Assembly (NCBI GenBank): GCA_003054655.1
Contig: QAYZ01000012.1
Coordinates: 248,001-312,000 of the forward strand
From: Spartobacteria bacterium LR76
GTDB taxonomy: Bacteria > Verrucomicrobiota > Verrucomicrobiia > Chthoniobacterales > Terrimicrobiaceae
Length of the DNA: 64,000 nt
Direction: 5' to 3'
The position numbers and the translations under genes are program-made. Below, in pieces: positions 972 through 23,738 of the stretch. Positions within the stretch are counted from its first letter, which is position 1. Every line of letters starts with the position of its first letter. The notes under the pieces were generated by a model, which worked only from the letters and a program-made list of their open reading frames with translations, ran no database searches and was not told the DNA's origin.

Positions 972-973
972 GG

Positions 974-1438: not shown

Positions 1439-1457
1439 TGTGGGAGAGATTTTCACC

Positions 1458-2411: not shown

Positions 2412-2418
2412 ATACCGG

Positions 2419-5400: not shown

Positions 5401-5880
5401 CTCAACACTGCATCCCGAGCCGTGCTGTCCGCCATCCTCACTGGTGCGCAGAAAGCCGAAGACGGAACGACCCTTCCTCCCGTCCTGTCCTCCGCCGAAG
5501 CTGGCAAGATCGCCGATTTGATCATTCAGAAACGCGCTTCAGCGCCGTTCCGCAATGTGGCTGAGCTTGCCACCCGGGTGGGCGACGACCTCCCTGCTGC
5601 GTTTGACACCGGCCCCACCAACACGAGCGACGGGTATTTCAAGACGCGCCGGGAATCCGCAATGCGCGCCCTCGTGGATGCGGTCGACACCCGGACTTGG
5701 AATCTCCTGATCGATGTCGTCGCCCAGACGGGCATGTTTGCTGCCAATGCCCCGCAAACGGAGGCTGCGCTCAACAGTTCCTTCATCGTGCAGGGAGAGC
5801 GCCGCTATTGGCTGCACCTCGCGATCGATCGCTACACGGGCGAGGTCATCGCCAGGGAGCTGGAGGCTGTTTATGAGTAG
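2419..5880 (+). CDS. Giant GspK/PilX-like protein, Verru_Chthon cassette protein A type, cassette 1
   Basis: 1153 aa from ATG 2419; the frame is open upstream but ATG 2419 follows the C stop directly and gives a sensible N-terminus. It begins with a polar segment, then GVALVIVLALVVLLTGLVVA, a GspK/PilX-like membrane helix without the usual Glu. Near residues 990-1060 is GRVNLNTASRAVLSAIL, followed by an IADLIIQKR...PFRNVAELA stretch, the helix-hairpin-helix arrangement typical of GspK. GspK caps the type II pseudopilus tip and is usually about 300-330 aa, so roughly 800 aa are inserted here. The shared pattern of DFFTVVDEP then AG-(R/K)-(V/I)-N links it to the A protein of cassette 2. The last codons overlap the next gene by 8 bases. 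Confidence 0.75.
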   Translation: MKPRSSHIDLVANGRPEKGVALVIVLALVVLLTGLVVAYFSRSMWDRQLSNSSLHQAMADELTRSAMDIITGDLKQEIANGSTRTTAGATTIYTPVSAAGTMPVRNTPTNPSPTLLRISTATDIGAPGADHPASPAISTTPSANGRSISLKRWNSHYLLPLGNPAKPQDTTPVSSGAEAFTAPGWVYVTNAGPVKLATPDKAVIGRYAYAIYDEGALLDMNVAGYPSPLPYVSGPTMPPSYALKGSLAFADLTQLKDASGNSWMTGAGINSTVGWRDYASLRNASGQPDGVFPALSFSGPSVYPAYVDLAASGATDSPDVRPVADPNGRTDQAFPSRQALIRFCSSIGTENFNPNALQYLGTFSRSLNAPTWSPQADASNGFLYKTDAEKPESANRNIPNVRTKKAFTRADGSRAEIGEVLVNQRFPLNRLALVTDSATAAEGSDIERFFGLTRETAKGEPWVYRGGAASIATLDEVAAQGWEPDFFELLKAAILAGSLGKYSDNDNHLVTKTLDRNKDVQIFQIGANLIDQYDADNHPTVIGFGSFDPIYGTESLPYLNHLYVTIFRPNRGDPQYPTLEGWLQFGLWNPNGNAADQTTDRKYRIIGTDGRAYLEASSGTNFLSAQQNLAGRYLEFTARGSTFAEPQLLIPSSTMTGGVTFAGVPIDATNDSSGYFGSPAQPSYASTTTAVTTTSPCYLVGFYLGSAVNPITGEPARDRTITGNPSDPASLSYYHARNALGSGGRYPTFALQYQDDDGTWRTYESVQARSFYLDHWYQYGFKSCTTWLTGKYNLNSGWGSDSGRGTSVGSGLAFGLTALSAMDPRSKRGGMVSTIGLNGRPIVAQTTIRPNSWANRFDSEPTSNSGYPKNPAGITMWTGWSTNNTFQPAKTADNKAGASSFVTDLDGVVRRADGDESNKVSPLWQVASGTTAQAVRAMRPTMLNRPFRSVGEMGFAMRGDPWKSLNLFSSDSADAALMDFFTVVDEPVVAGRVNLNTASRAVLSAILTGAQKAEDGTTLPPVLSSAEAGKIADLIIQKRASAPFRNVAELATRVGDDLPAAFDTGPTNTSDGYFKTRRESAMRALVDAVDTRTWNLLIDVVAQTGMFAANAPQTEAALNSSFIVQGERRYWLHLAIDRYTGEVIARELEAVYE

Positions 5881-6535: not shown

Positions 6536-9500
6536 ATGTTACCGTCCCATCATCTGCCCCAGCTCATCATCAACCGCATCGACGGCGCGATCCGCAGGCT
6601 TCGCGAGGAGATATGGCAGGGGTTCCTGCCGGTCGATGTATCAGCTACTCCTTCCGGCCCCCAGCAATATGATGTCGCGCAGGCGTGGCGGCAGCCATTG
6701 AGCCCGGTCAGACCTTGCTCGTTTTGGGGAAGGTTGTTTGATCAGAGATGGTATCGGCTCGATATTCCGCCCTCGGGCGGGCCGTTCTGGCTGAACTGGC
6801 GTAGCCAGAGCGAGGACACGCTCTATGTGAATGGCGAGCCGTATTTCGGCTTCGATGTCGGGCATCGCCACGTCCGGTTACCTGCGGGGGCAACTGAGGC
6901 ATGGGTCGAGTCGAATTGCATTCAAAGCGCGATCTGGCACCCGGAAGCCTCGCCCATGGATGCGGCGGGAAGCTATTTTGAAGGGGCCTTTCTTGGCTGG
7001 AGGAATGAAGAAGCCTGGCAGGCCTACAATGATCTGAAATGTCTCTTTGATCTCGCCGCCGACCAGCGCGGACGCGAGGACAGCAGGCTGAGTGCCGGGA
7101 TCGTTCCCTTCGGCTTGCAGGTGCCGATGGAGCGCTTTTCGCCCGCGTTTCGTCTCCTGCTGCGCATCCTGAACGAAGCGGTCGATGCCTGGGACAGGAC
7201 GGGAACGCTGGATGCCTTGCGTGAGCGGCTGGCGGAAGGATATCGGGATTTGCGGGTCGACAAGACCTTCATGCGATGCGTGCTCACCGGCCATGCGCAT
7301 ATCGACCTCGTGTGGCTGTGGCCCGAGCGGATCGGTGAGCTCAAGGCCGTGCATACCTTCTCCACTGTGAACCGTCTGATGGAGGACTATCCGGAGTTCC
7401 GCTTCGCCTATAGCCAGATCGCGAGCTATGAAGCCGTGCGCCGCCGCACTCCGGGGCTTTATCAGCGGGTGAAGGATCGCATGGAGTCCGGCCAATGGCA
7501 GGCCACGGGAGCGATGTATGTCGAGTCCGATACGATCCTCGCCTGTGGCGAGGCCCTGGCACGCAGCTTCCTGCTTGGGCAAAAAGGGTTTCAGGAAATG
7601 ACGGGACGACCTGCCCAGCTCACCTGGCTGCCGGACGCCTTTGGCTACTCGGCCTGCCTTCCCCAGATCATGGCCCAGACCGGGGTGAAGTACTTTTACA
7701 CCACCAAAGTGACGTGGAACTCGATCAATCCCTTTCCCTATAGCAGCTTCATCTGGAGGTCGAATGGCTCGGAGGTGATCGGCCACGTTACGCGGGATGC
7801 GGGCTACAATACCTTTGTCCAGGTGCCGGAGATCCGGGCCTGCGTGCTCGGGCATCAGCAGGGGGATATTCACCAGGAGTGCCTGCTGCCGACAGGCTTT
7901 GGCGACGGAGGCGGAGGGCCCACGGCGGAGATCTGCGAAAGGGCTCGGCGTCTCGGGGCATTGCCCGGGATGCCGGAACTCGCCTGGGACCAGCCGGAGG
8001 CTTTCTTCGAACGTCTGGCGCGCCTGCGCGACCAGCTTCCTGTCCACCAGGGAGAGTGTTATCTTGAGTTTCACCGCGGCACATACACAACCCACGGGAA
8101 TTTGAAGGCTGCCTTCCGGGGATTGGAGCGGGCCATGTGTTGTGCTGAGGCCGTTGCCGTGGTTACGGGGCATCGGTGGGATATGGAGGAATCCTGGTGC
8201 CGCCTGGTGTTTGCCCAGTTCCATGATTACATCCCGGGGAGTTCCGTATGGGATGTCTATGCAGAGGGGTTGCCTGACTTGAAAAAGCATGCCGTCGCGC
8301 AAATGGATCACGCTCACGCCGCGCTCAAGCAGGGGAGCGATGAGAGGGTGTGCGTTTTCAATCCCCACGCGGTTGAGGTTCGACGCTGGATCGAGGATCC
8401 GTCGACAGGCCGCGCCGTGTGGATGACCATCCCTCCTCTGGCTGGAGCCGAAATCGGTTCCTGCGGGAATCCCGATGCCGTACACGTCTCTGGTGGCACT
8501 GTCTCCAATGGACTGGTGGAGTTTCGCCTCGCCGACGAGGGATGGATCGACAGTGTGGCGTGGGAGGGGGCGAAGGTTCCGATCTGCGGCCCATTCGGCC
8601 GTCTCGTGATGTATCCGGATCGACCGGCGAATTTTGAAGCCTGGGACATCGATCGAAACACGCTCTCACTTGGCCAGCCTTGCGAAGGGGTTGCCGCCAT
8701 CGCTCCATGGTCGGACGCGCCTCATCGTGCTGGTTTTCGCGTCCGTCGCTCGATCGGCACGAAGAGCACGGCCGAGGTGATCTTTTATCTGGAGGCGGGC
8801 AGCCCGCACCTGCATGTCGAGGTGGAGCTCGACTGGCAGGAGCCGGAGAAGCTGCTCAAGATGGTCTTTCCGACCCGCTATGCCGGGGCGAATGCCCGCT
8901 ATGGAGCCCCCTTCGGGAGCACCTTGCGTTCGCAGATTCCCGATGGGCTGATTTCCGAGGCGATGTGGGAGGTGCCGTTTAGCAGGCATTTCTCGATCTT
9001 CGACGAGGGAGAGCGCGAGGGAATGTTTGTTGCGACGGAGTCAAAGTACGGCGTTTCCGTGCGCAGCGGAGTGGCGGGTGTGAGTCTCGTGCGCAGCCCG
9101 AGGGTGACAGGGATGGATAATGTGCACGCCTCGGTCTGGCCGCAGCATCTTTCGCGCATCGAAGCGCCCGCCGCTTATAGTGACCTGGGAGCGCATCGGA
9201 TCCGCCTGGTTCTTGGCCGCTACGACATCACCCTCCCCCGTGCCTCACAACCGGCCTCCGTGGCTGAGACGGAATTTACCGCGCCTCTGGTTTATCGCGG
9301 TCGCCCCATTCCTTCGGCTCTCGGCGAGGTTTCCGGGGGGGAGACCTTGATTCCCTGCTGGGCGGCGCCGCTGGATGGCGGGCGCTGGGTCTTGCGTCTC
9401 CATGAGGTGGCGGGAAGGCGAGGCGTGATCCGGATCGCTCCGCCAACCGGATGGACTTTGGAGGCTACCGACCTGTCTCTCGGGACGATCACGGAGCTCG

Positions 9501-9568
9501 GCGAGGGCAATGCGCTTGAGTACGAGCCCTATCAGGTCGCAAGCATCCTCTTCACGCCAGCCGCGTGA
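6536..9568 (+). CDS. GH38 alpha-mannosidase
   Basis: 1010 aa, the usual length for bacterial GH38 enzymes, which remove alpha-linked mannose with a Zn2+-assisted retaining mechanism. Expected metal and catalytic residues are present: HAHIDLVWLWP (H253, D257), the nucleophile in WLPDAFGYS (D367), and the later histidine in QFHDYIPGSS (H563). The order is an N-terminal beta-rich domain (about 1-240), the catalytic barrel (250-520), a three-helix region (530-600) and C-terminal beta-sandwiches. No signal peptide is seen, so it is probably cytoplasmic and acts on imported mannosides. It follows cassette 1 by 25 bases on the same strand, which links the pseudopilin cassette to mannan use. Linkage preference cannot be read from sequence. 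Confidence 0.93.
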   Translation: MLPSHHLPQLIINRIDGAIRRLREEIWQGFLPVDVSATPSGPQQYDVAQAWRQPLSPVRPCSFWGRLFDQRWYRLDIPPSGGPFWLNWRSQSEDTLYVNGEPYFGFDVGHRHVRLPAGATEAWVESNCIQSAIWHPEASPMDAAGSYFEGAFLGWRNEEAWQAYNDLKCLFDLAADQRGREDSRLSAGIVPFGLQVPMERFSPAFRLLLRILNEAVDAWDRTGTLDALRERLAEGYRDLRVDKTFMRCVLTGHAHIDLVWLWPERIGELKAVHTFSTVNRLMEDYPEFRFAYSQIASYEAVRRRTPGLYQRVKDRMESGQWQATGAMYVESDTILACGEALARSFLLGQKGFQEMTGRPAQLTWLPDAFGYSACLPQIMAQTGVKYFYTTKVTWNSINPFPYSSFIWRSNGSEVIGHVTRDAGYNTFVQVPEIRACVLGHQQGDIHQECLLPTGFGDGGGGPTAEICERARRLGALPGMPELAWDQPEAFFERLARLRDQLPVHQGECYLEFHRGTYTTHGNLKAAFRGLERAMCCAEAVAVVTGHRWDMEESWCRLVFAQFHDYIPGSSVWDVYAEGLPDLKKHAVAQMDHAHAALKQGSDERVCVFNPHAVEVRRWIEDPSTGRAVWMTIPPLAGAEIGSCGNPDAVHVSGGTVSNGLVEFRLADEGWIDSVAWEGAKVPICGPFGRLVMYPDRPANFEAWDIDRNTLSLGQPCEGVAAIAPWSDAPHRAGFRVRRSIGTKSTAEVIFYLEAGSPHLHVEVELDWQEPEKLLKMVFPTRYAGANARYGAPFGSTLRSQIPDGLISEAMWEVPFSRHFSIFDEGEREGMFVATESKYGVSVRSGVAGVSLVRSPRVTGMDNVHASVWPQHLSRIEAPAAYSDLGAHRIRLVLGRYDITLPRASQPASVAETEFTAPLVYRGRPIPSALGEVSGGETLIPCWAAPLDGGRWVLRLHEVAGRRGVIRIAPPTGWTLEATDLSLGTITELGEGNALEYEPYQVASILFTPAA

Positions 9569-9588
9569 GTCTCCAGTCGTCCATCACG

Positions 9589-10566
9589 ATGCGTGCGCCA
9601 CTTTGCCTAATCGCATGGCTGCTGCTATGTGTGACTGGTGTATCCTCCGGCACGGAGGACGGAGCGGAACGCATCCTGCGAAATGACCAACTGGAAGTCC
9701 GGGTGATGGTGCCCGACCATCCCGGGCAATACAATCGCGGGACGCGATTCACCCCGATTGCTGCCGTGCTCGGTGTGCGCCGCGATGGCGTGGAGTATCT
9801 TTATCGGCCGGAACCGCACGATCCGATCAACGACCACGCCGGACTGGCTGCGGAGTTTGATCTGTGCATCCCGGATGGTCCTGCCGATGCCCTGCCGTCG
9901 GGATATCAGGAGGCGGCAGTCGGGGATGGTTTCCTGAAAATCGGCGTGGGCGCGCTGCGTAAACCGGCAAAGACTTATCACCTCTTTATGACTCCCGAAC
10001 TGCTGGAGCCCGCTGTGACGACAGTCGATTGGCAGGCGAACCGGGCGGTGTTTCATCAAATCTTCGATGGCAGAACGACTCCCGGTTACTCGTATCGCCT
10101 GGATGCCGTGTTGTCGCTGGAGGGAGCGAGTGTGGTGGTCGATTGGAAGCTCTCCAACACGGGAACGAGACCGATTACCACGCGGCAATATACGCATAAT
10201 TTCTTCCGCATTGCCGATCGACCCGCGGCATCCGGCTACATCCTTTCATTTCCCTATGACATTCAGCCGAAAGGCCTGGAAGGGGGGCAGAAACTCGCTG
10301 GACGATCGATTCATTTTACGGGTGCCATACCCAAGTGGATCAATGCGACGGTAGCGTACCCGGCCAGCTATGCTGGACGAAACATCGTGACTCTCCGTCA
10401 TCCCGAGGCCGGGCGGGAAATCGTCTGCGAGATCTCCGATCCCGGGCTGCGAACCGATATTCACGCACGTGCGGACTATATTTCTCCGGAACAGTTCATC
10501 GAGATCACGCTGCCGCCCGGTGGGTCGCACTCGTGGACTAGAAAATACACATTTCAGGAAGACTAA
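9589..10566 (+). CDS. Secreted galactose-mutarotase-like protein
   Basis: 325 aa from ATG 9589, giving a clean signal peptide (MRAPLCLIAWLLLCVTGVSS). A GTG at 9565 in the same frame overlaps the GH38 stop and would give a longer, less typical leader. The body resembles the galactose mutarotase-like beta-sandwich superfamily (RGTRFTPIAAVLGVRRDG, TTRQYTHNFFRI, then a late ISPEQFIEITLPPGG segment). Members include aldose 1-epimerases and many uncharacterised sugar-binding proteins; I cannot assign catalytic residues with confidence. Position directly after the mannosidase suggests a role in handling the same glycan at the cell surface or periplasm. Confidence 0.7.
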   Translation: MRAPLCLIAWLLLCVTGVSSGTEDGAERILRNDQLEVRVMVPDHPGQYNRGTRFTPIAAVLGVRRDGVEYLYRPEPHDPINDHAGLAAEFDLCIPDGPADALPSGYQEAAVGDGFLKIGVGALRKPAKTYHLFMTPELLEPAVTTVDWQANRAVFHQIFDGRTTPGYSYRLDAVLSLEGASVVVDWKLSNTGTRPITTRQYTHNFFRIADRPAASGYILSFPYDIQPKGLEGGQKLAGRSIHFTGAIPKWINATVAYPASYAGRNIVTLRHPEAGREIVCEISDPGLRTDIHARADYISPEQFIEITLPPGGSHSWTRKYTFQED

Positions 10567-10883
10567 CGGAGCTTTGGGCGTCGCGATTTTTCGAACTTTT
10601 TTGGTAAGGTGAACACCACTTCCCTTCCCCTGATCGAGTCTCGATTGGTTGTACTATTGGTAAGCCAAACGGAGGGATTTTGGTAAACAAGATTTTGAAT
10701 AGCATGCCGATTTGTAATACTTAGGATCAGTACCTCCCCTTGCATCTGAAAAATCCATTTCACCCCAGCGATGTTGTGCCGCCCAGCGTCGGTGCTTTGG
10801 CGGTGAAAAGGAGCGTTGCGAGAGGGCTTCTCGCATCCGCGTTCGGGAGGTTCACCAAACACACCCCAGACCCGGACGATACC
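10567..10883 (+). promoter_or_regulatory. Gene-free leader with repeated TTGGTAA motifs
   Basis: 317 bases without a convincing gene separate the mannosidase unit from the carbohydrate-binding genes. It holds three direct copies of TTGGTAA at 10601, 10657 and 10680. The middle copy is part of a near-palindrome, TTGGTAAGCCAA (10657-10668). A related perfect palindrome, TTGGCATGCCAA, lies at 16002-16013 ahead of the next PEP-CTERM gene. LacI- and GntR-type regulators often use such sites, so I infer an operator region. A reading frame open from 10740 joins the downstream gene but has no signal peptide at its start. Confidence 0.4.
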
Positions 10884-11465
10884 ATGAATACAACTTATCA
10901 CATTGACGCTCCCTCCATTTCTTCGCCGAGGCGAGGCACGCAGTTTCTCATCGTGCTCGGTGCAGCAGTCATACTATCGGCAGGCCTTTTGAGAGCGGAT
11001 GAACTGATCAAAAATGGAGGCTTCGAGGATGGAAGCTCCGGCTGGTGGGGGCCGGGACTCAAGAGTGGCGGGGTGGTTTCGGATCAGGCCGGCGGAGGTG
11101 CCAACTGCCTGAATCTCTCGGAGGGCTTTGTTTGTCAGGACAAGCGCCCGGTCGAGGGCGGGAAGTCCTACAAGATCAGCATGAAGATCCGCAGCGAGAG
11201 CGCTCCCGAGGGATCAGTCTACGTGCAGGTGAGCTTCCGCGGAGAAGGCGTCAAGCCCGGCTGGTACGGGGCTGAAGTCGCCTCGGTCGAAGGCCGCTCG
11301 GAAAAGGCGCTCTTCGTCACGGGCGGCACCCAGGAGTGGAAGGAGTACACCTCTGTCATTGATGCTCCGGCTAATGCAACCGAAATGCTGATCTACCTTC
11401 GGAAACTCGGAGGAACGGCTGGCACGGCCTCATTTGACGATGTGAAGATCGAACCAGCCAACTAG
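10884..11465 (+). CDS. Secreted stand-alone carbohydrate-binding module (CBM4/9-like)
   Basis: 193 aa from ATG 10884. An N-terminal export segment (TQFLIVLGAAVILSAGLLRA) is followed by one beta-sandwich module of about 150 aa beginning ELIKNGGFEDGSSGWWG and ending TASFDDVKIEP. 'NGGFE...W' openings are typical of CBM4/9-like domains that bind soluble or insoluble polysaccharide chains. The module closely matches two copies in the next protein (shared GWWG, CQD, YKISMK, EKALFV and YLRK positions). No catalytic domain is present, so it probably serves as a surface or secreted glycan-binding protein. Eight bases separate it from the DUF4838 gene. Confidence 0.8.
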   Translation: MNTTYHIDAPSISSPRRGTQFLIVLGAAVILSAGLLRADELIKNGGFEDGSSGWWGPGLKSGGVVSDQAGGGANCLNLSEGFVCQDKRPVEGGKSYKISMKIRSESAPEGSVYVQVSFRGEGVKPGWYGAEVASVEGRSEKALFVTGGTQEWKEYTSVIDAPANATEMLIYLRKLGGTAGTASFDDVKIEPAN

Positions 11466-11472
11466 CAAGCCC

Positions 11473-14400
11473 GTGACCGGCATCATTTCCATTCCTAATT
11501 CTGTGAAAAACTCCTCCCGACACGTGCGCGCACTTTCCTGGATGGCCTCTGTGTTCCTTCTTGCAGGGGCAGTCTTTGTTCCGGTCTCCCCAATGCTGGC
11601 GGAGAATATCGTAAAAAATGGCGGTTTCGAAGATGGCCCATCCGGCTGGTGGGGCAAAGGAGTCAAGAGTGGCGGTGTCATCCCCGACAAACCTGCCGCG
11701 GGGACTGGAAGCATGCAGATCGCCGAGGACTTTGTCTGCCAGGATCATATCCCGGTGACTGGCGGGAAGAACTACAAGATCAGTATGAAGATGCGCTGCG
11801 AGGGGGTGCCGGACGGAGCAGTCTATGCCCAACTGAGCTTCCGCGGCGGAGGTGCGAGTCCCGGCTGGTATGGGCCTGCCGTGGCGAATGTGGATGGCCG
11901 CACGGAGAAGGCGCTCTTTGTTGGCGGCGGCACCCAGGACTGGAAGGACTACTCGGTGGTGGTTCGTGCGCCGGATGGAGCGAATCAGATGCTGCTGTAT
12001 CTGCGCAAGATCAATGGCACTCCGGGCACGGCCGCCTTCGATGAAGTCCAGGTCGAGCCGACCAGTGAGGCCGTGACCAAGGCGCAGCCTCCGCCGCTGC
12101 CGCCTGATGGACAGGTCGTGTCCAATGGCGGCTTTGAAAAGGGAGCCTCGGGCTGGTGGGGCAACGGAGCGAAAACCGGCGGAGTGGTGACGGAGATGCC
12201 CGCAGGGGGGCTCCAGTGCCTCAAGGTTGCAAGCAGCTTCTTCTGCCAGGACGGGCGTCCTGTGGAGGAAGGCAAGCGGTACAAGATCACGATGAAGATC
12301 CGTAGCGAGAACGCCCCGGAAGGCTCCGTCTATGTACAGCTCAGCTATCGCGGCGCATCCATCAAGGGCGGATGGTTCGGCCCCAATGTCGTCAATGTCG
12401 ACAAGCGCACCGAGAAGGCGCTCTTTGTCACGGGCGGCACCCATGGCTGGGAGGAGTACTCGTGCGTCGTGCAGGCACCGCCCACTGCGGAGCAAATGCT
12501 CCTCTATCTTCGGAAAAAGGATGGCACGGATGGAGCAGCGTATTTCGACGATGTGAGCATGCTGCCCACGGAGGAACCGGAGACGACGGCAGCCGGGCTG
12601 CGCCGCGAGGAGCTTGCCGCAAAATGGCTGAGTCCTGCGCTGCCGGAAGCAGAGGCTGCCGCGGGACTCGCAGCAGCAGTGGGAACCTCGCCAGTCCCGG
12701 CCCGGCTGAAACTCGCAGAGAATGGCCGGGCGCTCTATCGGGTGCATGTCGGTACGGTCGCCGGCGTGATCGAGCTCAACTCCGCCAACGACCTTGCCGA
12801 CTACCTCGGCAGGATCACCGGAGGCAATTTTCAGCCGCTCTCCCACGATGCACATCCTCTCGATGGTCCGTTGATCGTGGTGGGCCGGGACAATGCTCTC
12901 ACCGCGAAGCTGTGCCCTGATATTGACTATGCCAAGCTCGGCGATGATGGTTTTGTCCTTCGTACCGTCGGACAGCATATCGTCATCGCGGGAAATACTC
13001 CCGGAGGCACGATGTATGGCGTGAACTGGTTCCTCGACCACCTGCTGGGCGTGAAGTGGCTGAGTCCCGACTATACCCACGTGCCCGCTTCTCCGAGCGT
13101 CGAACTCGCGGCGCCAAATGAAACGCAGATTCCGCGATTCAAGTTTCGCCAGATCCTGAGCGTGGAGGGGCAGGACAAACCCTTCGCCGCACGCAATCTC
13201 CTTAACGGAAATTCCCACGGAGCGGCGAGCCTTCTGCCAGCGCCGGAGATTGATCACTGGGATGGCTCGTGGCAGCGCCCGGGTCTCACCGCCAGCTTTT
13301 ATCAGCTCATGCCGCCCAAGCAGTACATGAGCCAGCATCCGGATTGGTTCGCCGGCGGCCAGGTCGCAATGATGAATCCCGAGGTGCGCCAGATCATGGC
13401 CGACGGGATCATCGAGCGATTGCGCGGCGTGCCGAACTACGGCGACTACTGGTTTGGCTTCATGGACAACGACTGGGGATGGGACATGGATCCCGCGAGC
13501 GCGGCGTTTGCCAAAGAACATGGCGGGGCTCCGTCCGCCCCGCGCGTTGACATGACGGTCGACGTGGAGCAGCGGGTTTGCAAGGTATTGCCTGATGCCA
13601 AGCTGGCCTTCAACGCCTACCACTGGAGCTTTACTCCTCCCACCAACATGGCGATCCCTGAGGACATCCTCGTGTATCCGATGACCATTCACGTGGACTA
13701 CAGCACCCCGCTGAACCAGGGACGCAACAAGAAGCTGGGCGAAGACATCGCGGGTTGGAACCGCATCGCCAAGACCATCCTGCTCTGGGATCACGTCACC
13801 AACTTCAACGGATTCATCCAGCCTACCCCGAACATTTATCCCATCGCTGAGAGCATTCGCTGGCTATCCGGTCTGGAGAACGTCTTTGGATACTTCGCCG
13901 AGGGGAGCTGGAACACCAAGAGTGCCGAGTTTGCCTCCCTCCGCGTGTGGCTTATGGGCAGGATGCTATGGGACCCTCAGACCAATATTCAGGGGGCCGT
14001 GGGGGAATACTGCGACGCCTATTTCGGCCCCGCAGGGAAGTACCTGAAGCAATACATCGACCTTATGCATGAGGCATCTGTACGCAGTCGTGCGGCAGTC
14101 TGGGAAAAGACGAATGTCGACAGCGCAATGTTCACCTTGGATTTTATCACCAAGGCGGATGCGTTGTTTGCCCAGGCTGAAGCTGCGGTGGTCAATGATC
14201 CCACCTATCTCAGGCATGTCCGGCAGGCTCGCATGTGCGTCGACTACGTCATCCTCGTGCGCCGCAAGGAATACGCCGGTGCGGCGGCCCGGGAAAAGGC
14301 GGGCTTCGTGCTTGATTACGAAAACCGAAAGGCCCGGTTCAACAAAACCATCGAGGATGAGAAGGTCACTCAATTCCGCCAGGCCAAGACGATCGTGACG

Positions 14401-14934
14401 GGCGAGCTTGCCACTATGATCGACATGGAGCGCAAGGACTCCACGCCTCCGGAAATCGCGCGCAACCTACAACCTGCCGACTGGGTGGAAATCAACGACA
14501 TCGGCTTCAATCGATATTTCGACAAGATCGTGATCACATCTGATCCCCTGGCCTCTGATGGCGGTACGGTGAAGATGCCGGGCGACATCAATGGTCCCTT
14601 CATCCAGCTCAAGCATCACAAGCTGCCGGAGGAAGGTCTCTGGGATATCTATGCCGATGTGCGGGTGGAGGCCGAGGATGGAGCGAGTCCGGATGAGATT
14701 GCCTTTTTCATCGGGAACAATCCTCCCCAGACCGGAGGCATGGGCATCAAGTTCAGCCAGCTCAAACCGGGGCAGTATAACTTGATCAAGACGACCGGCG
14801 GCCCCTTCCGGTTTGATCAGAGTGATGGCAAGATAACGTTTATCCGCGGCGGTGGGTCGAAAAAGGTTAAGAACATTTACGTCGATCGCTTCATCTTTGT
14901 CCGCGCCAAAGAAGGTACAGCCGCGGCCAGATAG
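11473..14934 (+). CDS. Secreted DUF4838-type glycoside hydrolase-like protein with two CBM4/9-like modules
   Basis: 1153 aa. Export signal (SWMASVFLLAGAVFVPVSPMLA), CBM4/9-like modules at about 45-195 and 210-365, then an alpha-glucuronidase-N-like fold (about 420-550; NDLADYLGRITGG, VIAGNTPGGTMYGVNWFLD) and a DUF4838 catalytic-like barrel (about 550-850; GNSHGAAS, YWFGFMDNDWGWD, NAYHW). A C-terminal beta-sandwich covers about 1010-1145. DUF4838 proteins resemble GH20/GH67-type barrels and are common in polysaccharide-utilising bacteria, but few have a known reaction. The acidic residues in MDNDWGWDMD are candidate active-site residues (inference). The start may be GTG 11473 or a downstream codon such as GTG 11503. 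It lies between a CBM protein and the GH130 gene, apparently in one operon. Confidence 0.82.
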   Translation: MTGIISIPNSVKNSSRHVRALSWMASVFLLAGAVFVPVSPMLAENIVKNGGFEDGPSGWWGKGVKSGGVIPDKPAAGTGSMQIAEDFVCQDHIPVTGGKNYKISMKMRCEGVPDGAVYAQLSFRGGGASPGWYGPAVANVDGRTEKALFVGGGTQDWKDYSVVVRAPDGANQMLLYLRKINGTPGTAAFDEVQVEPTSEAVTKAQPPPLPPDGQVVSNGGFEKGASGWWGNGAKTGGVVTEMPAGGLQCLKVASSFFCQDGRPVEEGKRYKITMKIRSENAPEGSVYVQLSYRGASIKGGWFGPNVVNVDKRTEKALFVTGGTHGWEEYSCVVQAPPTAEQMLLYLRKKDGTDGAAYFDDVSMLPTEEPETTAAGLRREELAAKWLSPALPEAEAAAGLAAAVGTSPVPARLKLAENGRALYRVHVGTVAGVIELNSANDLADYLGRITGGNFQPLSHDAHPLDGPLIVVGRDNALTAKLCPDIDYAKLGDDGFVLRTVGQHIVIAGNTPGGTMYGVNWFLDHLLGVKWLSPDYTHVPASPSVELAAPNETQIPRFKFRQILSVEGQDKPFAARNLLNGNSHGAASLLPAPEIDHWDGSWQRPGLTASFYQLMPPKQYMSQHPDWFAGGQVAMMNPEVRQIMADGIIERLRGVPNYGDYWFGFMDNDWGWDMDPASAAFAKEHGGAPSAPRVDMTVDVEQRVCKVLPDAKLAFNAYHWSFTPPTNMAIPEDILVYPMTIHVDYSTPLNQGRNKKLGEDIAGWNRIAKTILLWDHVTNFNGFIQPTPNIYPIAESIRWLSGLENVFGYFAEGSWNTKSAEFASLRVWLMGRMLWDPQTNIQGAVGEYCDAYFGPAGKYLKQYIDLMHEASVRSRAAVWEKTNVDSAMFTLDFITKADALFAQAEAAVVNDPTYLRHVRQARMCVDYVILVRRKEYAGAAAREKAGFVLDYENRKARFNKTIEDEKVTQFRQAKTIVTGELATMIDMERKDSTPPEIARNLQPADWVEINDIGFNRYFDKIVITSDPLASDGGTVKMPGDINGPFIQLKHHKLPEEGLWDIYADVRVEAEDGASPDEIAFFIGNNPPQTGGMGIKFSQLKPGQYNLIKTTGGPFRFDQSDGKITFIRGGGSKKVKNIYVDRFIFVRAKEGTAAAR

Positions 14935-14979: not shown

Positions 14980-15924
14980 ATGTTGAATGCCACCCAGATC
15001 CTTAAGCGCCACCAGGCGAACCCGATCATAACGCCCGCGCATATGCCGCAGGCGGCAGTGGTCTTCAATCCAAGTCCGGCCTGGTACCAGGGTCGCACTG
15101 TGCTGCTGCTTTCCGCCTATGAATGGAGCTGGCCGGAAATCAAGAGGGCGCGGGGCGGCTGGGTCGCCATGAGCGATGATGGGGTGCATTTTGAGATTGC
15201 CGCTGAGCCGCTCATTGACTTGATCGGCGCGCCAGCGCCATTTGATAAGCTGAATTGCACCTTGATCGATGCCCGCATCACGCAGATTGAAAATCGGTAT
15301 TATATTAACTCCCCGGTCTATCAGGATGGCGAAGGTCCGTTCACCCTTTTGGGGATGACGGAAGATTTTCAATCCTATCAGCCGATCGAGATCGTTGCTG
15401 CCCCGGTCAATCGGGTGCCCTCGGTCTTTCCCGAAAAGATTGGCGGCAAATATTACCGCCTTGAGCGTCCGGGCCACGATGCCGGGGTGTCGATCTGGCT
15501 TTCGTCCTCCCCGGATCTCGTTCATTGGGGATGCTATCGTCCCGTGCTCAAGCCGGGTTACTCGATCTGGAACATTACGAAGATCGGCCCGACCCCGCCC
15601 ATTCGTACACCCGAGGGATGGCTGGTCATCATGCATGGCGTCTGGGCCTGGCAGGCGGGGGCAAGCCACTATCATATCGGCGCGTTCCTTCTGGATCTGG
15701 AGGAACCCTGGAAGGTGATCGGAAAGACCCAGAGCTGGCTGCTCGCACCCGAGGAAGACTACGAGACCCGCGGCACTGCAAACGACGTGGTGTTCCCATG
15801 CGGCGCTCTCGCCGATCTGGAGGCGGACGAACTGCGTGTTTACTATGGAGCGGCGGATACCCGGGTGGGGCTGGCCACCGGGTCGCTCTCAGCAGTTATC
15901 GAGGCGTGCCGCAAAGGCTGGTGA
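14980..15924 (+). CDS. GH130 family glycoside phosphorylase/hydrolase (mannoside-type)
   Basis: 314 aa with no signal peptide. The five-bladed propeller motifs of GH130 are visible: an early NPIITP, DARITQIENRYYI near residue 97 (its Asp is at the family's catalytic acid position), KIGPTPPIRTPEGWLVIMHG, and a late VVFPCGAL followed by VYYGAADT. GH130 enzymes mostly phosphorolyse beta-mannosides to mannose 1-phosphate, though some subfamilies hydrolyse; the subfamily cannot be settled by eye. With the GH38 mannosidase upstream it supports intracellular breakdown of mannose-containing oligosaccharides. It is the last gene of the unit that begins at 10884. Confidence 0.9.
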   Translation: MLNATQILKRHQANPIITPAHMPQAAVVFNPSPAWYQGRTVLLLSAYEWSWPEIKRARGGWVAMSDDGVHFEIAAEPLIDLIGAPAPFDKLNCTLIDARITQIENRYYINSPVYQDGEGPFTLLGMTEDFQSYQPIEIVAAPVNRVPSVFPEKIGGKYYRLERPGHDAGVSIWLSSSPDLVHWGCYRPVLKPGYSIWNITKIGPTPPIRTPEGWLVIMHGVWAWQAGASHYHIGAFLLDLEEPWKVIGKTQSWLLAPEEDYETRGTANDVVFPCGALADLEADELRVYYGAADTRVGLATGSLSAVIEACRKGW

Positions 15925-16114: not shown

Positions 16115-18001
16115 ATGAAACTATCTATGAAAACTCCCCCGCTTTCCCGGACTATCGCACTAGGTGCTCTTACGCTTGCCCTTTTGCAGGCTGCCGCTCA
16201 AGCCGACAACGGCACCTGGACAGGTACGGCCAGCGGCAACTGGTCGGATATTGCCAACTGGAATTCCGGCTCCGGCCCGGTGGCGAACGGCGCGACCTAC
16301 ACGGCGGATTTCAACGCCGGATTGACCGGGAACATCATTGTTACCCTTGATGCAGATCGCACGATCGGGAACCTTTCCTTTACTGACACAGTAGGTCCGG
16401 CGAACAACTACTCCATCACCGGTTCCAGCTCCGGCGCTCGTACTCTGACTCTGAATGCCGATGGAACGGGGGGAGGCACTTCAACGATCGCAGTCAATAC
16501 TGGAACTGCTGCGATCGGGGGTTCCAATCTGATCCTGGCTGGCAGCAGCGCCATCAACAAAACCGGTGCGGGAACATTGAATGTCAGTACCGATAACACG
16601 AGCGGCGCATTCAGCGGAGGCATCACCGTGAGTGAGGGGACGCTCGGGATGAATAGCGCAAATGCCTTTCGCAACGTGGCGGTGACGCTCGACAGTAGTG
16701 TCAATAACGCGACCCTGTCGCTGAACGTCAATGCCGCGATGAATGTCGGAAGTATCACGGTGGCAGCGGGAGGGACCGGTACGGCCTCGATCAACTATAC
16801 CATAGCCAACGGCAATACGCTGGCGGGGTCCATCATTCTGAACAAGAGTGCGACGTTTAACACCACCAGCAGTTCCATCCTTATCAGCACGGGCTTGATC
16901 TCCGGGACGGGAGGCATCCTGAAGACGGGGGCAGGAACACTTGCGCTCAGGAGAGCTAATAATACCTTCGAGGGCGGCGTGACGGTCAGCCAGGGTGGAT
17001 TGCGGCTGAATGGAGCGGGAAAGGTTGCAGGCACGGGAGTGATCGTGCTCGGTGATGCGAATACGGGGTCGAACAATGTCAGCCTGAATCTCAATCAGAA
17101 TGGAGGGGCGATTCTCAACGATGCACGTTTTACCAATAATGGTACCGGGGCGGCCATCCTGAGCAGTTATGACACCGACACAGGCGGAGGGACGACCTAT
17201 TCTGGAAACGTGCAGATCGATCGCAATATCGACCTGAGGAATAATAATACTTCGCCGAACAGGAACTTCACCCTTAATGGCACCATTTCGGGGGCGGGTG
17301 GGATTGTTGCCACGGTTACCAATGCCGGAAACCGTCTTGTGATCTCCGGCAGTAACACCTATGAGGGTGGCACTACGGTAAACGCTGGCACCATTCTCGT
17401 CAGCAATACTTCCGGAAGCGGTTTGGGATCTGGCAGTGTGTCCGTAAATACGGGCGGCATCCTGGGAGGCCGGGGTGCCTTTACAGGAAATGTGTCGGTG
17501 GCCTCAGGCGGTACGCTGGCTCCTGGTGAGAGCATCGAATCCCTCGCTTCCGGCGGGGTGTCATTTGCCAGTGGATCGAAGTTTGCCTACGAGGTAAGCT
17601 CCAGCGCCGCATTGAGTGCTGGCGCGGATCTGCAGGTGGTCAACGGCGGTCTCTCCTTGAGCGGAGCCGTGGAGTTGACGCTGACGAACATCGCCGGATC
17701 ACCAGTCGCCTTTGCGGAGAATACCACCTTCACGCTGATTAACTACAGCGGTGCCTGGAATAGTGGATTATTCACTCTCGGCGGCATTCAACTGGCCGAT
17801 GGAGCGACCTTCTCCTTCAACGGACAGAGCTGGGTGATCGATTACAACGCGGCCTCTGGTGGAAGCAACTTCACTACGGACTACATCGGTGGCAGCTATG
17901 TGAATATTACCGCTGTACCAGAGCCGTCCACCTGGGTGCTGCTTGGTCTCGGTCTTGGAGTCGTCATGGTGCGAGCCTGCCACCGTCGGAGCCGTTTTTA
18001 G
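16115..18001 (+). CDS. PEP-CTERM protein with autotransporter-associated beta-strand repeats
   Basis: 628 aa. Signal peptide (residues 1-30, ending QAAAQA), then a long Gly/Asn/Thr/Ser-rich region with repeats of the type 'GGxxKTGAGTLxL...NTFxGGVTVSxG', typical of passenger-domain beta-helices. The C-terminus is PEP-CTERM: VPEPSTWVLLGLGLGV, a hydrophobic helix, and the basic tail RRSRF. Such proteins are recognised by an exosortase (XrtA-like), trimmed, and tied to exopolysaccharide or outer surface. The exosortase gene is not in this window. No outer-membrane autotransporter barrel is present. Its place after the CBM/GH130 genes suggests a surface scaffold or adhesin for the same glycan (inference). 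Confidence 0.88.
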   Translation: MKLSMKTPPLSRTIALGALTLALLQAAAQADNGTWTGTASGNWSDIANWNSGSGPVANGATYTADFNAGLTGNIIVTLDADRTIGNLSFTDTVGPANNYSITGSSSGARTLTLNADGTGGGTSTIAVNTGTAAIGGSNLILAGSSAINKTGAGTLNVSTDNTSGAFSGGITVSEGTLGMNSANAFRNVAVTLDSSVNNATLSLNVNAAMNVGSITVAAGGTGTASINYTIANGNTLAGSIILNKSATFNTTSSSILISTGLISGTGGILKTGAGTLALRRANNTFEGGVTVSQGGLRLNGAGKVAGTGVIVLGDANTGSNNVSLNLNQNGGAILNDARFTNNGTGAAILSSYDTDTGGGTTYSGNVQIDRNIDLRNNNTSPNRNFTLNGTISGAGGIVATVTNAGNRLVISGSNTYEGGTTVNAGTILVSNTSGSGLGSGSVSVNTGGILGGRGAFTGNVSVASGGTLAPGESIESLASGGVSFASGSKFAYEVSSSAALSAGADLQVVNGGLSLSGAVELTLTNIAGSPVAFAENTTFTLINYSGAWNSGLFTLGGIQLADGATFSFNGQSWVIDYNAASGGSNFTTDYIGGSYVNITAVPEPSTWVLLGLGLGVVMVRACHRRSRF

Positions 18002-18164: not shown

Positions 18165-21100
18165 CTATGGGGAGAAGGTGGAATTCTCGATGACCCGCCA
18201 TTGGTAGTACTTTTCGAGATTGGGCGGCGTGGGGTCGGCGGTGTAATCGGGGATATCGGTATTTGCCGGATCGAGGAATCTCTCGAGGGTGACCGAGCCG
18301 CGCAGTTCGCCGACGATCTGCCCTTTGCCCTCGGTCCATTTCCCCTGGTCGTTGGCCGGAGGATTCTTCAGGGACTGGACAGTGTAGTGGACGGTGAAGG
18401 TATTCGATTTGGTCGTGAGGCGGGGATAAATATCGGCGTAGGGGCGTTCGCGCACGTTATCGCCCACCAGGGCAAAATCATCCCCGTACCAGCCGGCGTC
18501 GGCGGCGGCGTCTGTGGACCAGGAGTAGCCTTGAGGGACGAGATAGATGTCACAGATCTCCGAGGGAGAGCGGAAGATGTCCCATTTGGCGAATCTTGCC
18601 TTGAACTGCCGGAGCGACCCGTCGCTGTCGCTCAGGTTGAGCGGGAGGCGACCGAGGGCGACGGTGCTTCCGGGAGGCTTGGGGTTAGTGGTAGGAGCGG
18701 TGCTGCCGTAGGGGAGCTTGTAGTAGTTATGTCCTGTCTGTGAGCCATTCAATTGGGCGGCAGCCTTGGGCACTTGGGCAATGAGCTCGGAGCCGAGCAC
18801 GGCGCGCACCCCGGTGCTGCGATCGATGTAGGTGAATGGCACGATCTGGTAGTTCATGTTGATCTTGCCTGCGGTGGAGAAGGGCTCGCTGATGGCGTAG
18901 GGTTCCACGACGGGCATGGTGAAGAGATCCAGCAGCAGGTGGTCTTTGGGACCCTTCGGATCGCGTGGACGGCTGGCTTGCGGGCGGAAGAGGAGAGTGC
19001 GCCAGGGTACGCCCTCCTGTACACCGGTCGGGAGCGAGCCAAACATGACTGCCGACGGAATGATGCGATTGGCGGTGAAGTAGCTTGCGATGCTCGAACT
19101 GGCGCCGTTGACCTGGTTTTCACCGTTATAGTAGGGCGCTGCTCCCGAGCTTGTGTAGATATTGCCCTCGTCCGGTTTGTTTGAGTACGCGCCGTCCCGT
19201 GAGCCAGGGAGGCCAGTGTCCCAATCCCAGTCGGCGGCGGGGGTTGAGGTGTTTGGCACCTTGGGAGTCCAAGCCGGTTCGTAATCTGCTCCCGGCACCA
19301 GCTTGCCGCCGAGACTGACGCCCGGCACGAGATTGGAGGCCTTGGCCTGCATGAGCGTATGGGCCAGCTTTGCCCCGGAGCTGTAGCCTGGCGTGGTGAC
19401 CATGTCCTTGGTACCGTCGGCCGTGACGGTCTCCTTGGCCATGATCAGGCGCACGTCGCCGTCCTTGGCGGCGAGGCTGCGGACGACGTCCGACCTGTAG
19501 CTGCCCGCCGTCGAGCTGTCGGGAATGCCCGTGGCATCGGTGCGAATGACGCCACCCTTGCCAGCGGCTGTGAGGGACCCAGGACTCTGCGCTGCCCATT
19601 CGATGCGTTTATCAAACCCCCACCAATCCTCCACAGTGTTGGTGCCGGCGGTGGCGGTCTGGATCAGATCAGGCAGTGGCAGGGTGATGGAAGGGAAGGA
19701 GATCTGAAAGGTCTGGACCACGCGGCGTGTGCTGGTGCCCTTGGCCTTGACCATGATCTCGGCGACGAAATTTCCGTTGGTGCTGAGGGTGACCGTGCCG
19801 GTGCCATCGGTGGCTGTCGGAACAGTGAAGGGGTTGCTGACGAAGCGGTAAGGAAGATACGAAGTGGAAGAGTTGCTCCAGCCGTTGCGGCGATTATTGT
19901 TTCCGCTCCAGTCGACGCGGGACATGAAATACTGAAAGCCGTTCAGGCCTCCCATCTGGATGACGTCATTGTAACGCGTGGCGGGGCCTTCGGTCAGGAG
20001 ATCGCCGGAGGGAAACGGGCTTTTGTCTAGTCCGGCGGACGTCGTGAACTTCACATTGTTCAGGTCGCGGATGTTGATGCTGACATCGGGCATCATCGTG
20101 TCAAAGCCGAGCATGGGCGAGTTGAGCTCGATGAGGATCATCGCCTGGAGGCGTTTTTCACCGGGATTCAGCAGGGTTTTCGTGCCACCGTAGGTGTCGG
20201 CCAGAGTGGGGTTTGGATTGGTAGTGATGTTGTTGCTTTTGGTGCGGGGATCACTTTCATTACTCGGATCGCCGTTTCCATCGGCGGTGGTGATCAGGAG
20301 CAGCGCGACTTCCGAGATGGTGTACATGCGGCCGAGGCCCTGGGTTGCGCCAATACGCAGCGGGACGACCTGTCCGCCGCCGGTGGCGGCATTTGTGCTT
20401 GGTGGGGTAAACCGCACGGTCGGGTTGCTCGAGCTGGCGTCCGTGACCGAGTGGTCATAGAGATTCGTGGAGCGGATGTAGTCCACCATTTCCGTGAGGA
20501 TCTGGTCTCGCTCGTTGGTATACTTGTATTTTTGGTCGAAGCTTCCGCCGAAGCCGGGGATGTCCCGCGAGGTGAGGTTTTGCAGGTAGCTGTAAAGCTC
20601 GCGGTTGCGGGTGATCTGCGACCAATCATTGGTCGGGCTGGTGGAGTCGTGCCGCTGGAAGTAGTATTGATTGATGGCGGAGCCCGTTCCGGTTGAAGAG
20701 CAGAAAGCGATCAGCTTGTCAAAGGGAGTGGCGAGCTTCGTGGTGTTCGTGGGCGTGGGATTGCGCCCGTATTCGGAATCAATGGGCCAGACGGCGATGC
20801 GGGGAGTGCCGAAGAGCGTGGTCTCCGGGGCTCGGCTGTGGCTGGTGAGCAGAAACTTGCCGGTCTCGACCTGCTGCTGGGTCACAGAAGGGCCGTCGCC
20901 GGGGTTCTGGTTGCGGTCGGGGCGGAAGAGCATTTCGCCCGGGGAGGTGTAGAGGCGGTCGTTCTTGGCGGTGATCGTGGTCGGGATATTGGACTTTGTG
21001 GTGTCGACGGTGCCTCCCTTCGAGCCGTTCATGTCGTCGTAGCGGGGGAGGAGGCTGAAAAATTTCGAGGACGTGCCGGCACCGGTTTGCGTGTTGGCGT

Positions 21101-22082
21101 AGTCCCCCATGGGCATGCCCAGGGCACTGAAGATCTTCGAGAGATCGGTTGTCGCCGGGTGGCCGGGGTAGCGTTGATACTCGCCCTGCACCGGCTGATT
21201 GCGGGAGAAGAGCCTGACGTCGTCCAGCATGCGGAAGCGCGGGACGTCCCAGGGTGCGGAGAGCGCGGTGGTGCCGTTCCATTTGCCAATGCTGCCGGAG
21301 GCGGTATTGACGTTTACCTTGGTCGTCTCGTCATCGGTCCAGAAGGCGACGCGGCCGACGATGGGGTTTTCCTTGGTGGCGCCTGAGATGGTCACGGTCG
21401 AGCCGGATGGGGAGGAGGGAGAGACCATGGTCCCATCGCGCAAGACGTACATCCAGCGCACGGGCATGGGGGCGGGCTGGAGCTGCGTGGCTCCGGGAGC
21501 GCCAGTGATGGAAAAGCCATCGAGGGTCTTGAGGACGCTCGGATTGGTGGCGGAGCCGGGACTCGAGGGGTCGCGGGGGTCCAGGATCGGAAAGCTGAGC
21601 GACTCGGTGCTGCCAAATCCCGAGATGGTGACGGGTTTGTTCAGATCGACCCAGACGGCTGGCTGGCTGGCCCAACTGGCTGGCGGGATGTCGTCGGCCA
21701 GGATATTGCCGCTGCTGGTTGCCGTCGACATCTCAGTGCTCGAGTAGAGGCGATAGATATTGGTGAGGTTTCCCGCGTTGTCGAAAACCCGCACCGCGCC
21801 CGGCTGGGACGCCCAGGTGGAGTCGCCGGTGCTGGTGCCCGTGGTCGCCTCGTTGATCGTGGCCTGTACCAGATTCACGGCGGATTCCGCCAGGAGCCGC
21901 GTGCTGGCGGCGGCGTCGTAGCTCGCCGAGGCAGAACGCTCCGTGCCCGTGCGCACGAGGAAAATGGTCACGAGGGCACCGAGCAGGACGATGATGGCGA
22001 GGACGGCGATGAGGGCGGAGCCGGCGGTCAACTGCCGACGGGCAAAGCAAAGACGCCGTGGGGAATCAAGCAGCCGTTTCAT
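18165..22082 (-). CDS. Giant GspK/PilX-like protein, Verru_Chthon cassette protein A, cassette 2
   Basis: 1305 aa. The N-terminus has a short basic segment and GSALIAVLAIIVLLGALVTI, a PilX/GspK-type membrane helix. The large head contains NPIVGRVAFWTDDETTKVNVNTA and, near the C-terminus, LLLDLFTMPVVEPY followed by GKINMNYQIVPFTYIDR, features I associate with Verru_Chthon cassette protein A. The GspK-like NLNTA/HhH block seen in cassette 1 is replaced here by the NMNYQ block. The start overlaps the D stop as ATGA, so translation is probably coupled. It ends the operon, 160 bases from the convergent PEP-CTERM gene. Confidence 0.88.
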   Translation of the reverse strand: MKRLLDSPRRLCFARRQLTAGSALIAVLAIIVLLGALVTIFLVRTGTERSASASYDAAASTRLLAESAVNLVQATINEATTGTSTGDSTWASQPGAVRVFDNAGNLTNIYRLYSSTEMSTATSSGNILADDIPPASWASQPAVWVDLNKPVTISGFGSTESLSFPILDPRDPSSPGSATNPSVLKTLDGFSITGAPGATQLQPAPMPVRWMYVLRDGTMVSPSSPSGSTVTISGATKENPIVGRVAFWTDDETTKVNVNTASGSIGKWNGTTALSAPWDVPRFRMLDDVRLFSRNQPVQGEYQRYPGHPATTDLSKIFSALGMPMGDYANTQTGAGTSSKFFSLLPRYDDMNGSKGGTVDTTKSNIPTTITAKNDRLYTSPGEMLFRPDRNQNPGDGPSVTQQQVETGKFLLTSHSRAPETTLFGTPRIAVWPIDSEYGRNPTPTNTTKLATPFDKLIAFCSSTGTGSAINQYYFQRHDSTSPTNDWSQITRNRELYSYLQNLTSRDIPGFGGSFDQKYKYTNERDQILTEMVDYIRSTNLYDHSVTDASSSNPTVRFTPPSTNAATGGGQVVPLRIGATQGLGRMYTISEVALLLITTADGNGDPSNESDPRTKSNNITTNPNPTLADTYGGTKTLLNPGEKRLQAMILIELNSPMLGFDTMMPDVSINIRDLNNVKFTTSAGLDKSPFPSGDLLTEGPATRYNDVIQMGGLNGFQYFMSRVDWSGNNNRRNGWSNSSTSYLPYRFVSNPFTVPTATDGTGTVTLSTNGNFVAEIMVKAKGTSTRRVVQTFQISFPSITLPLPDLIQTATAGTNTVEDWWGFDKRIEWAAQSPGSLTAAGKGGVIRTDATGIPDSSTAGSYRSDVVRSLAAKDGDVRLIMAKETVTADGTKDMVTTPGYSSGAKLAHTLMQAKASNLVPGVSLGGKLVPGADYEPAWTPKVPNTSTPAADWDWDTGLPGSRDGAYSNKPDEGNIYTSSGAAPYYNGENQVNGASSSIASYFTANRIIPSAVMFGSLPTGVQEGVPWRTLLFRPQASRPRDPKGPKDHLLLDLFTMPVVEPYAISEPFSTAGKINMNYQIVPFTYIDRSTGVRAVLGSELIAQVPKAAAQLNGSQTGHNYYKLPYGSTAPTTNPKPPGSTVALGRLPLNLSDSDGSLRQFKARFAKWDIFRSPSEICDIYLVPQGYSWSTDAAADAGWYGDDFALVGDNVRERPYADIYPRLTTKSNTFTVHYTVQSLKNPPANDQGKWTEGKGQIVGELRGSVTLERFLDPANTDIPDYTADPTPPNLEKYYQWRVIENSTFSP

Positions 22083-23727: not shown

Positions 23728-23738
23728 GCGCTTGAGCG

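Follow-up and report, generated by a model that had tools for sequence, protein, structure and literature searches.

Glycoside hydrolases are described as common in exopolysaccharide (EPS) operons; the activity of one of them, PslG, supports synthesis, and PslG is in addition a physical part of its machinery (PMC6813494), while AlgL is reported to clear periplasmic alginate (PMC8829089). From a different direction, one published table labels a DUF4838 (PF16126) protein as GH163 (PMC9870897), and a GH163 enzyme of Bacteroides thetaiotaomicron, an endo-beta-N-acetylglucosaminidase, is described as cutting GlcNAc-beta-1,2-Man (N-acetylglucosamine linked to mannose) within complex N-glycans, with GH38 and GH130 enzymes also acting in N-glycan breakdown (PMC10154615). 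Here we consider a 64,000-nucleotide stretch of Spartobacteria bacterium LR76 (contig QAYZ01000012.1, positions 248,001 to 312,000; hereafter, the window), which encodes at 11473..14934 on the + strand a large DUF4838 protein with predicted export. An original prediction, made from the letters of the window, called its reaction unknown, which is too strong in view of the GH163 reports. We favor, with a probability of about 0.5, the reading that the window protein, as a member of a distinct DUF4838 subfamily, is an exported glycoside hydrolase with a bacterial exopolysaccharide as its substrate.

The window protein and its fold

The gene is a single open frame with a GTG start, encoding 1153 amino acids (aa). 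It is not a chance frame, because copies 94-96% identical occur in both other genomes of the genus searched, and relatives of its core, 42-63% identical, are spread over four phyla; a 94% identical relative is found in a Verrucomicrobia metagenome-assembled genome. Within its own genome (a 4.75 Mb assembly of 16 contigs), the window protein is the sole PF16126 match. That match spans the entire profile (1-325 of 325) at residues 529-863, with E 9e-47 and 160.2 bits against a cut-off of 26.6. Two stretches match the carbohydrate-binding module (CBM) family CBM_4_9 (PF02018, E 5e-15) and are 58% identical to each other; Glyco_hydro_67N matches at E 8e-5, slightly below its cut-off, and weak GH20b and NAGLU_N matches are also present. 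The N-termini of the window protein and several relatives are signal-peptide-like, as judged by inspection of the translations. The features of the gene are as follows:

11473..14934, + strand: exported DUF4838 protein (export predicted), 1153 aa; single open frame
11473..11601, + strand: signal-peptide-like N-terminus, about residues 1-43, from inspection of the translation
11605..12063, + strand: CBM_4_9 module 1, residues 45-197
12109..12570, + strand: CBM_4_9 module 2, residues 213-366
12691..13128, + strand: GH67/GH115/GH84-type N-terminal alpha/beta domain, about residues 407-552, from Glyco_hydro_67N, profile A2 (GH115, GH67) and the model
13144..13971, + strand: glycosidase barrel, about residues 558-833, from the Pfam DUF4838 match, the model and fold searches
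13165..13167, + strand: E565 (core E186), aligned by profile to D206 of GH115 BoAgu115A
13462..13491, + strand: MDNDWGWDMD, residues 664-673, with D667 as proposed catalytic acid and D665, D671 and D673 as subfamily acids, from conservation and loop confidence
13792..13794, + strand: H774 (core H395), where a strand ends; other DUF4838 proteins have Tyr
13900..13902, + strand: E810 (core E431), where a strand ends; candidate for the second carboxylate
13987..14430, + strand: helical region, about residues 839-986, from DSSP of the model
14482..14904, + strand: C-terminal beta sandwich, about residues 1004-1144, from DSSP of the model and barely covered by the fold search

The core (residues 380-1153, such that core number plus 379 gives protein number) was folded on a 15-sequence alignment, A1; a single-sequence prediction of the whole protein, with a mean predicted local distance difference test score (pLDDT) of 35.5, was set aside in favor of this model. 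The core model reaches a pLDDT of 84.2 and a predicted template modeling score of 0.86, and consists, in order, of an N-terminal alpha/beta domain, a barrel, a helical part, and a strand-rich C-terminal sandwich. Its best solved match under VIA-align is a GH115 alpha-glucuronidase (4zmh_B; Z 17.2, root-mean-square deviation 4.9 over 504 residues, 12% identity), and Foldseek also ranks GH115 first (best E 1.3e-22); next by Z come GH84 (14.3), GH20 lacto-N-biosidase (13.4), GH67 (13.2), and GH138 (12.4). On the strength of this model, we are highly confident that the core has a glycosidase-type fold. The structural comparison with GH20 and GH67 suggested in the original prediction thus returned a glycosidase fold and not a non-hydrolase one; likewise, the large DUF4838 open reading frame is exactly as given there, and the layout of two binding modules, alpha-glucuronidase-N-like domain, DUF4838 barrel, and C-terminal sandwich is borne out by Pfam and the core model.

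At the level of sequence, searches of PDB with the protein alone or with profile A1 gave no matches, and a wider profile, A2, reached the N-domains of GH115 (E 3e-13), GH67 (E 1.5e-9), and GH84. The GH115 family profile PF15979 has no match in the window protein up to E 0.1, and none in its genome. The absence of a solved GH163 chain among the VIA-align matches is not evidence against GH163. The fold by itself does not reveal the sugar acted on: GH115 and GH67 are described as having no active-site residues in common (PMC3879575), so likeness of fold says little about the sugar.

A distinct subfamily with a switch at three positions

A 29-row tree groups the subfamily into a single clade of 24 on a long branch (support 100/100). 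The window protein falls in a clade of five (100/100) from the Planctomycetota-Verrucomicrobiota-Chlamydiota (PVC) group; the alphaproteobacterial clade is supported at 99/99 and the eleven betaproteobacterial rows at 97/99. Sulfuriferula, LW23, and genome G889 branch at the base without a resolved order, and the tree gives no direction of transfer between the groups. A profile search of 387 genomes of the phylum found matches in 46 at E 1e-60, of which only four (the window's own genome, two Lentisphaerae, and G889) score at least 973 bits, and the next scores 555 bits. By these sequence criteria, the DUF4838 subfamily is sharply bounded. It is also rare, occurring in 8/299 Burkholderiaceae genomes and, within the order that includes Rhizobium nepotum, in two of 397. 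PVC members and Sulfuriferula carry two CBM_4_9 modules, most proteobacterial members carry one, and none is detected in the Burkholderia pyrrocinia group, a distribution that loosely fits an EPS hydrolase.

To compare residues, we counted 17 non-redundant sequences out of 25 distinct subfamily members and 40 out of 46 other DUF4838 proteins (those at least 90% identical having been removed), with subfamily membership sorted by locus; at any one position, the residue is missing in one or two of the 40. The Asp at core 288 (D667) is invariant in both sets (17/17 and 38/38, or 55/55 together), and sits in the stretch MDNDWGWD (residues 664-671), right behind a barrel strand. This invariance makes MDNDWGWD the likely site of a catalytic acid, in keeping with the original proposal of candidate acids there. 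Core residues 287-291 form one of the three segments in which the model's pLDDT falls below 50, as might be expected of a mobile catalytic loop like those described for GH115 and GH67 (PMC3879575); in GH115, Arg-328 and Asp-332 lie on this loop. In the wider-family profile alignment, core E186 (E565) pairs with Asp-206 of the GH115 enzyme BoAgu115A, with Glu in place of Asp; Asp-206 has been cautiously proposed as a catalytic acid (PMC3879575). Glu occupies core 186 throughout the subfamily (17/17), whereas the other DUF4838 proteins have Asp in 13/38 and Glu in 5/38.

At three further positions, the subfamily departs from the rest of the family. Core 286 (D665) is Asp in 15/17 members and Gln in 29/38 others; core 395 (H774) is His in 17/17 against Tyr in 38/39; and core 431 (E810) is Glu in 17/17 against Gln in 26/39 and Glu in 10/39. 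The combination D-H-E at 286, 395, and 431 is found in 15/17 subfamily members and in none of the 40 others, whose commonest signature is Q286-Y395-Q431 (21/40). Position 431 is the least certain of the three: Since other DUF4838 proteins often have E430-Q431 and the subfamily has A/G430-E431, this Glu may have come about by a shift of one residue and not be newly acquired. The switch may reflect an altered mechanism.

Exopolysaccharide clusters around the proteobacterial relatives

The setting of the relatives' genes, which does not figure in the original prediction, emerged from comparison of their loci. On two Burkholderia pyrrocinia plasmids, RefSeq annotates, around the gene, undecaprenyl-phosphate glucose phosphotransferase, tyrosine phosphatase, polysaccharide export protein, tyrosine autokinase, and flippase; the same clusters further contain a hypothetical protein, three glycosyltransferase (GT) genes, here called GT2a, GT1, and GT2b, the DUF4838 gene, a GT4 gene, and a pyruvyltransferase. 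We label the hypothetical protein Wzy-like; it has six hydrophobic stretches and no Pfam match. The DUF4838 frame overlaps the genes on both sides by 4 bases each.

Using the B. pyrrocinia cluster proteins as queries (E 1e-10, half of the query covered), we compared 18 proteobacterial loci drawn from some ten lineages, with nine loci contributed by close Burkholderia. This set excludes L015, a contig-edge fragment with a DUF4838 match in a 209-aa frame and no B. pyrrocinia cluster genes found; the DUF4838 proteins of L017, L089, and L090 fall outside the subfamily, so these loci are uncounted, and L055 (4.3 kb) is too short for neighbors. EPS synthesis genes surround the DUF4838 gene in all 18 proteobacterial loci. 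Relatives of GT2a, GT1, and GT2b occur together in 16/18, Devosia and Chthonobacter lacking the full trio; a Wzy-like relative occurs in 17/18, and a Wzy-like relative, a Wzx relative, or both in 18/18. Among the 299 Burkholderiaceae genomes, eight have the enzyme and nine have the adjacent GT2b, with all eight shared.

Further genes occur in some of these clusters. Caballeronia has RmlA- and RmlB-like nucleotidyltransferase and dehydratase proteins, Devosia has a ManC-type GDP-mannose enzyme, pyruvyltransferases appear in three alphaproteobacterial clusters, Ciceribacter has an acyltransferase, and Paraburkholderia has YjbH. No UDP-glucose dehydrogenase or other uronic-acid enzyme is among the 20 EPS-cluster proteins scanned, a sample that does not include every gene.

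A separate observation concerns genome G132 of the Burkholderiaceae, in which the slot behind GT2b (locus L096, 8927-10663) holds a 578-aa protein with a Tat-signal-like N-terminus. It has no Pfam match and only chance-level PDB matches; by eye, it resembles a right-handed beta-helix, and is perhaps another polysaccharide-cutting enzyme.

Neighborhood of the window gene and of other PVC copies

The genes around the window protein are arranged on the + strand as follows:

6536..9568, + strand: GH38 alpha-mannosidase-family protein; PF01074 E 6e-66, solved alpha-mannosidases E 1e-79
9565..10566, + strand: ORF333, without Pfam match; homologues near the DUF4838 gene in Lentisphaerae and LW23
10740..11465, + strand: stand-alone CBM_4_9 protein; PF02018 E 1e-9, with ATG at 10884 as the better signal-peptide-like start
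14980..15924, + strand: GH130 mannoside-phosphorylase-family protein; PF04041 E 3e-42, nearest solved chains TM1225 and UhgbMP

ORF333 overlaps the GH38 gene by 4 bases, the DUF4838 gene follows the CBM_4_9 gene 7 bases on, and the GH130 gene begins 45 bases past the DUF4838 stop; the window protein does indeed lie between a CBM protein and GH130. Relatives of ORF333 adjoin or lie near the DUF4838 gene in L002, L003, and L013 (48%, 50%, and 45% identical, respectively). The stand-alone CBM is 52-60% identical to the two internal modules, and by sequence the three look like products of duplication. A promoter scan of the region gave one site against a shuffle mean of 3.2, and terminator-like sites were uninformative.

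The window gene is not inside an EPS synthesis cluster, as judged from the window genes, its own genome, and the cluster queries. None of the seven PVC subfamily loci (L001, L002, L003, L007, L013, L091, and L092, of which L092 and L003 are one and the same contig) has B. pyrrocinia cluster genes, and the window's genome has no close GT2a, the best being 31% identical over 105 aa. The neighbors had been taken to narrow the substrate to a polysaccharide decorated with mannose or uronic acid. That inference is weak: the mannose-active GH38 and GH130 flank the gene in this genus only, no uronic-acid gene was found among the neighbor proteins scanned in the window and the relatives' loci, and the uronic-acid idea would rest on the modeled fold.

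In each of the four PVC groups compared (window genus, Lentisphaerae, Planctomycetota, and LW23), the region upstream contains pilin-like genes; as these phyla are rich in such genes, the finding is suggestive only. In the window, there are two minor-pseudopilin-like gene sets (234-5880, + strand, and 18165-24218, - strand) with N_methyl motifs and large proteins resembling GspK. Both sets adjoin glycosidase genes, the former GH38/DUF4838/GH130 and the latter GH16; the large protein at 2338-5880 has a 53% identical relative directly upstream of the DUF4838 gene in LW23. The Lentisphaerae genome GWF2_50_93 (L002; G058/G993) has 20 profile-A1 matches, one of which (L089, 555 bits) lies near pilin-like genes, a CBM relative, and a gene distantly related to GH130.

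Two other features of the window stand apart from the DUF4838 gene. Three PEP-CTERM proteins lie among glycosidase genes (16115-18001, 26362-28026, and 35918-37024, all + strand), two of them with PATR repeats. A fusion of a GH1 domain to a C-terminal AraC-type DNA-binding domain (28153-29937, - strand) is divergent from an ordinary GH1 gene (29764-31569, + strand); the fusion has SDP in place of the GH1 acid/base motif NEP, SD being present in 3/3 fusion copies compared and NE kept in 17/17 other relatives compared, and one fusion copy also lacks the nucleophile Glu. Two genomes of the window genus have two full-length matches each. From its sequence, the fusion appears to be a glycosidase that has lost its activity and now senses sugar to regulate its neighbor.

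Proposed function and competing explanations

Within the favored reading, the parts differ in strength. The subfamily probably acts as an EPS hydrolase in Proteobacteria; that the same kind of polymer is cut in the window bacterium has, in our estimate, somewhat less than an even chance. In alpha- and betaproteobacteria, the protein would be a cell-envelope enzyme, PslG- or AlgL-like, that trims or clears the polymer of its own cluster. In the Verrucomicrobiota bacterium, which has no EPS cluster beside the gene, the enzyme would act extracellularly on the polymer as food: the CBM_4_9 modules would keep it on the polymer, the barrel would cut, and GH38 and GH130 would then dismantle mannose-containing fragments. 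The proton donor would be D667, located on a flexible loop where a barrel strand ends, and the second carboxylate would be supplied either by E810 or by E565, the counterpart of GH115 D206. One enzyme type may thus serve both slime makers and slime-eating bacteria, which would share one glycan; GH38 and GH130 next to the window gene and the ManC-type enzyme of Devosia point toward mannose as one of its constituents.

Several observations speak against exopolysaccharide as the substrate or weaken the case for catalysis. The copies of the B. pyrrocinia group have no detected CBMs, and few parts of the model are less certain than the region of the putative catalytic loop. The co-occurrence of enzyme and GT2b, with a Fisher value of 6e-15 that ignores relatedness, draws seven of its eight genomes from close Burkholderia kin, and G132 lacks the enzyme yet carries GT2b, which there belongs to a different EPS cluster. 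On the consumer side, GH38 and GH130 neighbors occur in the window genus only, Lentisphaerae, Planctomycetota, and LW23 having other neighbors, and the window's genome has two Wzz-family matches elsewhere, such that it may make some EPS itself.

Among the competing explanations, the strongest is an ordinary GH163-type enzyme acting on N-acetylhexosamine (HexNAc) glycans such as N-glycans, in which DUF4838 would cut a beta-GlcNAc bond by substrate-assisted catalysis, GH38 would remove alpha-mannose, and GH130 would split Man-beta-1,4-GlcNAc. As GH38 and GH130 act in N-glycan breakdown too, this is a serious rival for the window copy, and the GH163 reports, the nearness of the window GH130 to TM1225 and UhgbMP, and the presence of GH84 and GH20 among the fold matches speak for it; both of these families use substrate assistance. 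We nevertheless consider it unlikely, given the EPS synthesis clusters that house close relatives, the replacement of the commonest Q286-Y395-Q431 by D-H-E in 15/17 members, and the lack of GH92, GH20, GH18, or sialidase among the window proteins scanned with Pfam, a scan that covered the window and not the whole genome.

Less likely still is an inverting enzyme in the manner of GH115 or GH67 alpha-glucuronidases that strips uronic-acid side chains from a polysaccharide. GH115 supplies the best solved fold matches, a profile match with E565 at the place of D206, and a comparable flexible barrel loop (PMC3879575). Weighed against this are the missing PF15979 match, the restriction of the sequence match to the N-domain and first barrel strand, the lack of a uronic-acid gene among the EPS-cluster proteins scanned (again, not every gene), and the small bearing of fold on sugar when GH115 and GH67 differ in their active-site residues (PMC3879575). 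In a third alternative, the protein would have no catalytic role but would bind glycans or act as a scaffold for the EPS machinery, retained for its several CBM modules and barrel cleft; PslG is likewise a physical component of its machinery (PMC6813494). This alternative is highly improbable in light of D667 at 55/55, several further acids invariant in the subfamily, and the B. pyrrocinia-group copies that keep the barrel with no CBM detected.

An extension of the exopolysaccharide reading is rather unlikely as a whole, if somewhat less so than any of these rivals: The subfamily would have changed from a HexNAc-dependent, substrate-assisted to a two-carboxylate active site and become specialized in hydrolyzing a single proteobacterial EPS, widespread, undescribed, and containing mannose or rhamnose, which PVC bacteria would eat with the same enzyme, and its genes would mark makers and consumers alike. 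If true, one gene family marks an uncharacterized EPS system in alpha- and betaproteobacteria and its PVC consumers, and DUF4838/GH163 gains a second function with clear residues to test. Enzymes that cut one exopolysaccharide are useful for biofilm dispersal and as reporters of slime makers and eaters. The DUF4838 family is known; the subfamily switch and the EPS association appear new, neither having been found in the open-access literature searched, where DUF4838 is named in a single paper and PF16126 in none.

Comparison with known systems

The window protein falls in the Pfam family PF16126, linked to GH163, and matches the whole length of that family, with the invariant Asp at core 288. 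From GH163/DUF4838 at large, the subfamily differs by D-H-E in place of mostly Q-Y-Q (a comparison with other DUF4838 proteins rather than with a characterized GH163 sequence), by its proteobacterial EPS-cluster setting, and by its CBM_4_9 modules. The Bep cluster of Burkholderia cenocepacia (Bcam1330-Bcam1341) is likewise devoted to EPS in Burkholderia and includes genes for export, a kinase, a transporter, and glycosyltransferases; as a candidate for the DUF4838 cluster it was rejected, the published gene table listing a beta-helix protein (Bcam1339) and no glycoside hydrolase or DUF4838 protein.

With the GH115 enzymes BoAgu115A and SdeAgu115A, the protein shares the order of N-terminal alpha/beta domain, barrel, helical part, and sandwich, as well as E565 at D206 and a flexible loop; it differs in having 12-14% identity in structural alignments and no PF15979 match. 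With GH67 alpha-glucuronidases and GH84 O-GlcNAcases, it shares the N-domain and barrel (Z 13.2 and 14.3), with a weak sequence match mainly in the N-domain. PslG (GH39), AlgL (PL5), and BcsZ (GH8) belong to other enzyme families, and the window copy itself lies outside a cluster of their kind; these are exported polysaccharide-cutting enzymes encoded within EPS clusters, and the proteobacterial relatives share that position, with the cutting proposed.

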